From NCBI GenBank assembly GCA_024642665.1, contig JAHEAR010000004.1:6457-70456 (forward strand): DNA of 64,000 nucleotides. The letters run 5' to 3'. Below are positions 16,627-18,931 of this stretch, piece after piece. How positions within the stretch are numbered: the first letter of the stretch is position 1; each line of letters begins with the position of its first letter. The notes below the pieces were generated by a model, which saw only the letters and a list, made by a program, of their open reading frames with translations, searched no databases and was not told where the DNA came from. The position numbers and the translations under genes were made by a program. The stretch is from Bacteroidota bacterium. Lineage in GTDB: Bacteria; Bacteroidota; Bacteroidia; Chitinophagales; Saprospiraceae.

Positions 16627-16761
16627 ATCCGAAAGATAAAAATAGATTTTCCCGTATCGATCAATCTTACTGATACCATTAGAAATAATTGCTATCTGCA
16701 AGTCAAATGGCAAATCTGCCATCCTTGTTTTATCAGAATATGATTATATTTCTACCTGATT

Positions 16762-17325
16762 ATGAGTATTAGTATCAACCTGCAGCACCAAGAAAAGGAC
16801 TTTATTGAGGCCTGTATTGCCAAAGAAAGGTGGGCCCAAAAGCAACTTTACGAGGATCATTACACCCTTTTGCTGGGTGTGTGTCATCGATATGCCACGA
16901 ATCAGGAAGATGCCATGGATATTCTTCATGAGGCATTTATCAAGATTCTTAAAAACATTCATAAATATCAACCCGGAACCTCCCTGATCGCCTGGATGCG
17001 GCGCATTGTGATCAATACCGCCATTGATTACTATCGCATGCAATCCCGCCGAAGAACGGATGATTTAGATACCGCTTACGATGTTCAGGGAAATGAACCA
17101 GATGCGATCAGCAAGCTGACCGTTCAGGAAATTGTCAGGTGCATACAGCAGTTATCCCCTGCGTATCGTTCTGTATTTAACCTTTATGTGGTAGAAGGCT
17201 ATTCTCACCGGGAAATAGCGGAAATGCTCGAAATTACTGAAAGCACAAGCCGCTCAAACCTGGTAAAAGCCAGATTAAAACTCAAAGGACTATTGACGTC
17301 AAGTCAGGTGCATTATGGAAAATAA
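16762..17325 (+). CDS. ECF-type RNA polymerase sigma factor
   Basis: Extracytoplasmic-function sigma-70 family protein. Region 2 covers about residues 22-95 (YEDHYTLLLGVCHRYATNQEDAMDILHEAFIK, then AWMRRIVINTAIDYYR). Region 4 is at about 125-175, with the helix-turn-helix YSHREIAEMLEITESTSRSN. Its last 11 bases overlap the start of the next gene, which encodes a membrane protein with a cytoplasmic N-terminus, so the two probably form a sigma/anti-sigma pair. Confidence 0.93.
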   Translation: MSISINLQHQEKDFIEACIAKERWAQKQLYEDHYTLLLGVCHRYATNQEDAMDILHEAFIKILKNIHKYQPGTSLIAWMRRIVINTAIDYYRMQSRRRTDDLDTAYDVQGNEPDAISKLTVQEIVRCIQQLSPAYRSVFNLYVVEGYSHREIAEMLEITESTSRSNLVKARLKLKGLLTSSQVHYGK

Positions 17326-18931
17326 GGACTGGGATAGCTATTTACAGCGGATTTTGGGTGAATTTGAAGCCAATGAGGATTCTCATTGGGAGGATCTGAA
17401 CAGCAAGCTGAATGCCTCTTCCATGGACCCGGACAAGGATGACGTACCAAGTGACGAAGTACTCCGAGAATCATTATCTGAATATAAACCCACTGACGAA
17501 ATTCAGGGATGGGAAGCACTGGCCTCCAGTCTTGATCAGGCCGACAAAGCGTTTGATAAAGAGATCAATGAAAAAGTCAAACATTATAATGCCCCACATG
17601 ATCCTGACGCATGGTCTTTATTCCTGAAAAATTTCAGTGCCTATAAAGCCTTACGCCTAAAACTCATAGCCCTTAAAGCTTTTGAAGCAAGTGCTGTGCT
17701 GTTACTTGTATTTACTGTTTTTCAAATGCATCAGAAAGGTGCTTTCCAATTGTATGATCAACAAGAGAAATTATCCTATAGCGAGACAGCCACTGAATCC
17801 TCAAACAAGCCATGGAGTGCTGAACAATTAGATCCATCCAAAAGCATAACAGGCATTAGCGAAAGTGCTGAGCAATCAGAACGTTTTCAGTCCAATGGTG
17901 TAAACCACCTTTCAGCACATTCAACAGATCATACATCCCTCGCAAACGGTGTAACAGGGTCTGACGAGTCAGGCACCATTCATACTGACCAAATATTTAC
18001 ACTACCCTTTCTTCCAAGTCAAAACGTAGCCTATTTTAACTCGGTAAGTGATGATAGAAATGATATCTTATCAGACCTTACCCATGTGTCTGCCGGAGCG
18101 AGTAGCATGGCTGCATCCCATCGACTAGATTACGTCACTGAAACACTTGCTCAAACAGAAATAGGCGTTAAAAATAATTTTGCAGGTCTTATCCCCTACC
18201 CTGTTTATGTCAAACCTGCAAGTAAAAAGTTTCTGGAATTTGGCATGTTGGCTCAGGTCGATTTTAATACGCTGAAAATGCCACAGGATATACTATATAC
18301 AAATCGCAAACAGTTTGTATTTCCTCTTCAAGGTCTTCCATGCACAGGATATGGCGCCGGATTTACAGTAGCACTAGTTCATAATCGTTGGGCGGTTGAA
18401 TCAGGTGTTATCTATAATTCAAAAACATTTAAACCCGGCCGTAGCCTGACAGTTGGCGAAGCAACTGATCACAGCAAAGTTGAATTTGATGCTATGCAGA
18501 TTCAGATCATATCCGCACCGATTCAACTCAGATACAAAATCACTCCGCAAAACCGATTTCAATGGTACGCCATTGCCGGGGTAGGTATGCACATCATCGC
18601 GCAATCTGATATTGATGTGGATGTCAATTACAATTTCTCTTCACTCCCTGTAGGAGAGAATCCAAATAATCATCCTGCCCTCGCTAAAACTATTCGTGAA
18701 TCTCAAAGATTACGAGACAATTTCCGGCAAAAAGCACCCTTTAGCACCAAGAGCTTTATTACGGCCAATCTGGGACTCGGTTTTGAGTATGCTGTGGCCG
18801 CAAGGAAATCTTTATTCCTTCAATCCACTTATCAATATCAAATTCCAAATTTGCGGTTTAGCAATCACAATGGAAAACAACTTGTATCCACGGCTATTCA
18901 GGTCGGTGTGAGGACGCCATTGGGGTATTAA
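17315..18931 (+). CDS. Putative anti-sigma protein with single membrane helix and C-terminal outer-membrane beta-barrel-like domain
   Basis: A 538-residue protein overlapping the ECF sigma gene by 11 bases. Residues 1-110 are acidic and predicted cytoplasmic, with three W-x2-L motifs (HWEDLNSKL, GWEALASSL, AWSLFLKNF). One membrane segment lies at about 117-137, followed by a Ser/Thr-rich linker (about 150-290). From about 305 to the end the alternating pattern resembles the porin-like outer-membrane beta-barrel domain of Bacteroidota, ending in VGVRTPLGY. Function is inferred from the layout: a membrane sensor holding the sigma factor. Whether the C-terminal region forms a real barrel in a protein with an inner-membrane helix is not clear. 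Confidence 0.7.
   Translation: MENKDWDSYLQRILGEFEANEDSHWEDLNSKLNASSMDPDKDDVPSDEVLRESLSEYKPTDEIQGWEALASSLDQADKAFDKEINEKVKHYNAPHDPDAWSLFLKNFSAYKALRLKLIALKAFEASAVLLLVFTVFQMHQKGAFQLYDQQEKLSYSETATESSNKPWSAEQLDPSKSITGISESAEQSERFQSNGVNHLSAHSTDHTSLANGVTGSDESGTIHTDQIFTLPFLPSQNVAYFNSVSDDRNDILSDLTHVSAGASSMAASHRLDYVTETLAQTEIGVKNNFAGLIPYPVYVKPASKKFLEFGMLAQVDFNTLKMPQDILYTNRKQFVFPLQGLPCTGYGAGFTVALVHNRWAVESGVIYNSKTFKPGRSLTVGEATDHSKVEFDAMQIQIISAPIQLRYKITPQNRFQWYAIAGVGMHIIAQSDIDVDVNYNFSSLPVGENPNNHPALAKTIRESQRLRDNFRQKAPFSTKSFITANLGLGFEYAVAARKSLFLQSTYQYQIPNLRFSNHNGKQLVSTAIQVGVRTPLGY

Follow-up and report, generated by a model that had tools for sequence, protein, structure and literature searches.

In a 64,000-nucleotide stretch of DNA from a Bacteroidota bacterium of the family Saprospiraceae (assembly GCA_024642665.1, contig JAHEAR010000004.1, positions 6,457 to 70,456; hereafter the window), a gene for an extracytoplasmic function (ECF) sigma factor overlaps a gene whose single product joins a cytoplasmic region, one predicted membrane helix, an extended linker and, at its C-terminus, a domain resembling an outer-membrane β-barrel. 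The two genes probably encode a sigma factor and its anti-sigma factor of the dual-membrane-spanning (Dma/Reo) type, in a variant with tandem cytoplasmic units; the anti-sigma protein would release the sigma factor under outer-membrane stress. Gut Bacteroidales are already known to have envelope-spanning anti-sigma factors, and the present pair comes from another bacterial family.

Gene pair and parts of the partner protein

The sigma factor gene (window positions 16762..17325, forward strand) encodes 187 residues with clear sigma domains (Sigma70_r2, E = 7.7e-18, and Sigma70_r4_2, E = 2.3e-17, in Pfam; TIGR02937, E = 1.9e-30), and the gene for the one-piece anti-sigma/barrel protein (17315..18931, forward strand) encodes 538 residues. 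Both open reading frames, which an earlier note on this DNA had described as an ECF sigma gene overlapping a one-piece partner gene, were confirmed together with their overlap of 11 nucleotides (17315..17325, forward strand). Of 72 sigma–partner pairs counted, with the window's among them and L081 excluded, 58 showed overlapping genes, and in 21 the overlap was exactly 11 nucleotides, which suggests translational coupling. RNA structure at the overlap was not better than in shuffled sequences, and no RNA family was found within the window at gathering thresholds.

A search of 100 genomes of the family found the partner at E≤1e-3 in 76 (own genome included), mostly as open frames of 440–660 residues. 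The orthologous sigma gene stood directly upstream on the same strand at 72 of the 75 relatives' loci, and the other three loci start at a contig end. This conservation of the pair excludes a chance assembly. Searching with the sigma alignment gave an ortholog in 93 of the 100 genomes; the ortholog line was drawn at E 1e-74 because the next sigma group begins at 1.6e-61. In residue identity to the window's proteins, the sigma factor is strongly conserved (48–89%, 72 family orthologs), whereas the partner is fast-changing (15–57%, 70 full-length orthologs). A search with the window protein showed the partner to be single-copy in this genome. Matches to the partner were found in 64 genomes in a phylum-wide search; 20 loci were examined, 14 of them outside the family, and all 20 adjoin an ECF gene.

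For the alignment of 71 partner proteins, L034 and L081 were excluded because of runs of N, and L052, L105 and L106 because of contig ends. All 71 keep the order of cytoplasmic region, helix, linker and barrel within one gene. Columns conserved at 93–99% are W25, D81, W100, K121, E124, P402 and G422. The earlier note had named one membrane helix, and the partner indeed has a single hydrophobic stretch at about residues 115–138, with a best 19-residue Kyte-Doolittle mean of 2.1; the helix is placed at residues about 117–138 (17663..17728, forward strand). The number of Lys and Arg residues was higher on the N-terminal than on the C-terminal side of the helix in 62 of the 71 proteins, equal in 6 and lower in 3, which is consistent with an N-terminus inside the cell. 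K121 and E124 lie at the start of the helix, and this K-x2-E pair at the cytoplasmic helix entry (17675–17686) is kept across the alignment (K121 in 93%, E124 in 99%).

The linker (residues 145–300, 156 residues; 17747..18214, forward strand) is poorly conserved. Its length ranged from 111 to 207 residues (median 161) in the aligned proteins, and Ser and Thr made up 26% of residues 151–290, in agreement with the Ser/Thr-rich linker noted before. Such a long and variable linker would tolerate cleavage. On this alternative, which we regard as unlikely, the partner is cut after export into an inner-membrane anti-sigma factor and a separate outer-membrane barrel sensor, with no intact spanning chain at steady state. 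FecR-type anti-sigma factors are known to cleave themselves, and a sigma factor of the same clade in this genome is paired with a barrel-less anti-sigma candidate of 167 residues. However, all parts are encoded by one gene throughout the alignment, and little is conserved in the linker except proline columns at ≥90%, whose exact place differs between two alignments. Both points argue against such a cut.

The C-terminal domain (residues 301–538; 18215..18928, forward strand), in which G364 and G531 are invariant among the 71 proteins, is barrel-like, as the earlier note had proposed, although the evidence comes from the ortholog set, with the window protein's own family match being below threshold. 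OMP_b-brl_2 (PF13568) was matched by 54 of the 71 orthologs at E≤0.1 and by 16 at E≤3e-6, with a best value of 3.4e-14. Alternating hydrophobic/polar 9-mers occurred at 5.0 per 100 residues of the domain compared with 1.2 after shuffling; the alternation exceeded the shuffled mean in all 71 domains, and no excess was seen in the linker or the N-terminal region. These results make it very improbable that the domain is a soluble periplasmic β-sandwich or a periplasm-retained barrel and the partner a conventional inner-membrane anti-sigma factor. That alternative would fit the sub-threshold match and the unusable structure predictions of the window protein, but it is also at odds with the closest relatives in the passages of the literature considered, which are described as outer-membrane barrels.

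Cytoplasmic units and related sigma factors

On the evidence of unit profiles, which find multiple units in the N-terminal regions of the family, the cytoplasmic region consists of an array of tandemly repeated units of about 35 residues each. In the window, all on the forward strand, unit 1 lies around W25 (residues 23–34; 17381..17416) with a weak profile score of 5.9 bits, unit 2 around W66 (residues 47–75; 17453..17539) with 12.5 bits, and unit 3 around W100 (residues 78–107; 17546..17635) with 34.7 bits, this last stretch being itself in the profile. Three W-x2-L motifs had been claimed. The description holds for W25 (WEDL) and W66 (WEAL), whereas W100 (WSLF) is W-x2-F, and a further motif at W6 (WDSY) had gone unmentioned.

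The array was also seen with a profile built outside the family. The 14 outside relatives range in kinship from a different family within the order, through further families of the class, to at least one other class of the phylum. They have about 45–55 residues before the helix and one conserved W motif, that is, room for one unit. A profile from these 14 alone detected 117 units in 64 of the 71 family N-terminal regions (≥3 bits), with two or more in 44, compared with 1.3 unit matches per set of 71 shuffled regions. With the profile of the family's last unit at 5 bits, two or more units were found in 66 of the 71 proteins: 37 had two units, 25 had three, 3 had four and 1 had five, and the remaining 5 proteins had one. 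Matches of that profile to the last unit arise by construction, and the 105 earlier units that it detected in 66 proteins (≥3 bits) do not. The count depends on the method: the same-genus relative (L032) scores a single unit with the profile at the 5-bit threshold, yet carries W motifs at positions 6, 25 and 67. Unit number showed no phylogenetic signal on a sigma tree (28 changes, against 28.6 with shuffled labels).

Most simply, the array would be an amplified sigma-binding module. It could further be imagined, although we consider this rather doubtful, that each unit binds one sigma factor and that the envelope-spanning protein serves as a multivalent sigma store with about three sites in the window protein. 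If so, the number of units, one to five in the orthologs, would set the amount of sigma factor freed per disturbed barrel and would thereby tune both the threshold and the gain of the response. The natural series of one to five units could also serve to dissect the binding step. That the partner is merely a co-transcribed envelope protein and not an inhibitor of the sigma factor is hardly credible: a Pfam scan of the partner gave no anti-sigma domain, but a single sigma lineage accompanies the partner at every locus not cut by a contig end, the helix-proximal unit recurs in the 14 outside relatives, each beside an ECF gene, and the phenotype of the related protein Dma2 requires its sigma factor Das2 (passages of PMC13088901).

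Thirteen further ECF genes of this genome were inspected; two of its 16 region-2 matches, in frames 294 and 295 codons long, were missed by the sigma profile and lie outside these 13. Four of the 13 are directly followed by a gene for a helix-linker-barrel-like protein of 468–512 residues (L149:2877-4328; L147:16751-18178; L108:2897-4435, reverse strand; L155:4002-5408, reverse strand), so that the genome, with the window, holds five candidate pairs among 14 ECF genes. In three of the four pairs the genes overlap by 4 nucleotides. Pfam support for the barrel was above the cut-off for L108 only and weaker for the other three, and the relatives' unit profile gave weak scores of 15.7, 6.8, 4.5 and 1.5 bits on the four proteins (shuffled maximum 4.0). 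Another ECF gene is paired with a FecR protein by Pfam scan (L147:3541-4509).

A midpoint-rooted tree was made of 28 sigma factors: the 13 further ECF sigma factors of this genome, that of the window, 5 of the 72 family orthologs and 9 of the 14 sigma factors from outside the family. Those paired with barrel-type proteins grouped together with a local support of 0.88. The FecR-linked sigma factor fell outside this group, and one non-barrel pair (C67) fell inside it. The sigma factor accompanying the 167-residue anti-sigma candidate mentioned above (L151:4802-5305, reverse strand) clusters with the barrel-linked ones.

Promoter motif and predicted target

The 200 bp preceding each of 72 sigma genes were compared (that of the window among them; L039, with less than 200 bp of upstream sequence, was excluded), and 52 carried the motif GCAGC-N16/17-CGTT. 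GCAGC-N17-CGTT was exact in 44 of these and differed in its first base in another 3, and GCAGC-N16-CGTT accounted for 5 more. The remaining 19 spacings from 8 to 28 together gave three occurrences, and the best comparable word pair in resampled sequences was found upstream of only 6–7 of 72 genes. This spacing preference supports a promoter, and the motif would look like an ECF promoter regulating its own gene. Because it stands at the relatives' own sigma genes, we infer that this sigma factor reads it. A generic sigma-70 promoter scan showed no excess.

For a first look at targets, sites were picked by hand from the examined loci and from 20 regions of G078, G030, G082 and G095. This set held 98 sites, 16 of them between genes and before a gene, and such sites recurred at a single-copy polysaccharide deacetylase gene (PF01522), which 90 of the 100 genomes carry at E≤1e-40. 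In the window's own genome the motif lies 108 bp upstream of the deacetylase start. All 90 genomes with the gene were then scored except G074, in which the TFDDG word was not found. Upstream of the deacetylase gene, 42 of the 82 genomes with the sigma factor carried the motif, with spacing 17 in 37 and spacing 16 in 5; 13 other spacings gave 0–1 occurrences each. Across the 100 genomes there were 1005 motif sites against 427 sites of the backwards pattern, a weak comparison because the backwards pattern has a different base rate; in this genome there were 17 against 10, and 13 of the 17 lie inside frames of ≥150 codons.

A SusC-type receptor with a motif site in this genome (L186) was rejected as a conserved target, since the motif was found in only 3 of 30 homologs, itself included; it is possibly a target of local extent only. 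In G057, the motif stands 215 bp before a gene for a 377-residue protein (L240), which we take from its sequence to be a PorP/SprF-like protein of type IX secretion. Two identical motif matches about 5 kb apart (L182 and L183, contig C30 of G000) lie within reading frames 993 and 1008 codons long, which probably represent a duplicated gene.

The neighbours of the pair in the window are a DinB-like gene and a gene for a DPP-IV-like peptidase. The DinB-like gene is divergent, and only 39 bp (16723–16761) separate it from the sigma gene.

Proposed working and comparison with known systems

We propose the following working for the pair. The helix would serve as a signal anchor of N-in orientation that is not cleaved, the linker would cross the periplasm, and the C-terminal domain would be inserted in the outer membrane, while the cytoplasmic units would keep the ECF sigma factor bound at the inner membrane. 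Disturbed outer-membrane assembly or integrity would destabilise the partner protein. Most simply, periplasmic proteolysis followed by intramembrane cleavage would then free the sigma factor, a step modelled on RseA-type systems. The freed sigma factor would start transcription at GCAGC-N16/17-CGTT promoters, with the single-copy polysaccharide deacetylase gene as the conserved predicted target and with the pair's own operon as a target in most relatives though not in this genus. The predicted promoter and single-copy target make a simple reporter possible.

Several observations weigh against this proposal. The window protein's own C-terminal match to OMP_b-brl (residues 345–532, E = 5.3e-5) scored 23.9 bits, below the Pfam cut-off of 28.7. 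AlphaFold, run with shallow two-sequence input, gave unusable predictions for the full protein and for the barrel alone (mean predicted local distance difference test scores of 30 and 32), so the topology rests on sequence. A profile search of solved structures in the PDB returned four chance-level matches (best E 0.32), none of them credible. W100, present in 99% of the 71 proteins, is replaced by Cys in the same-genus relative, which also makes it doubtful that each unit is strictly needed. The window and this relative both have no copy of the motif upstream of the sigma gene. At the deacetylase gene, 40 of the 82 sigma-bearing genomes are without the motif and 2 of the 7 scored as sigma-lacking have it, so that dependence of this motif on the sigma factor is not proven; in G009, one of the 7, the sigma gene may only be unassembled, because the partner gene sits at a contig end.

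Like FecR-type anti-sigma factors, the spanning partner would carry signals from the outer membrane to an ECF sigma factor. FecR acts together with a distinct TonB-dependent receptor, whereas in the window pair the Pfam scan found no FecR domain (PF04773) and no TonB-dependent receptor gene is adjacent. As for the promoter, the ECF-type SM6 promoters of Flavobacterium psychrophilum have a CGT −10 box, and one ECF/anti-sigma pair is among the SM6-associated genes; unlike the target predicted here, several SM6 targets are genes of the type IX secretion system, and the comparison leaves the −35 part aside (passages of PMC9723704).

A single chain that spans both membranes and reports to a sigma factor has already been proposed for Dma and Reo (passages of PMC13088901, PMC9308784 and PMC13114119), and the idea of an envelope-spanning anti-sigma factor is itself not new. 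Reo, the partner of EcfO in Phocaeicola vulgatus and Bacteroides fragilis, has been described as spanning all five compartments and is proposed to sense outer-membrane stress; in P. vulgatus, exposure to BcpT led to a 33-fold rise of the pair's sigma gene (passages of PMC9308784 and PMC13114119). The window pair shares with Reo/EcfO an ECF sigma factor and a large anti-sigma protein with a C-terminal outer-membrane barrel. The likeness is one of description, and the passages of these two papers mention no repeats for Reo, in contrast to the tandem units seen here.

The Dma family of Bacteroides thetaiotaomicron (Dma1/Das1, Dma2/Das2 and Dma3) combines an anti-sigma domain, a helix, a disordered tether and a barrel, and is described as restricted to Bacteroidota and located beside ECF21 sigma factors, with the exception of Dma3, which carries the sigma domain itself (passages of PMC13088901). 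The locus in the window appears to have the same sequence features: an ECF sigma gene directly adjacent in the window and its relatives, a single transmembrane helix predicted by hydropathy and charge after the cytoplasmic N-terminal region, a long tether between helix and barrel, and a C-terminal outer-membrane barrel domain recognised in the ortholog set, the window protein alone being below the cut-off. We liken the pair to Dma1/2 and Reo by architecture and not by sequence comparison. It differs from Dma in its lineage, in the tandem units of its cytoplasmic region, and in its predicted target, a polysaccharide deacetylase compared with NigD1 and polysaccharide utilization loci in the work on Dma1 and Dma2 (passages of PMC13088901). 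Tandem anti-sigma units were not found described in the Dma and Reo literature looked at, a statement about those passages and not about print as a whole. The tandem cytoplasmic units, the promoter motif with its predicted deacetylase target, and the four further candidate pairs are what the present analysis adds to these known systems.
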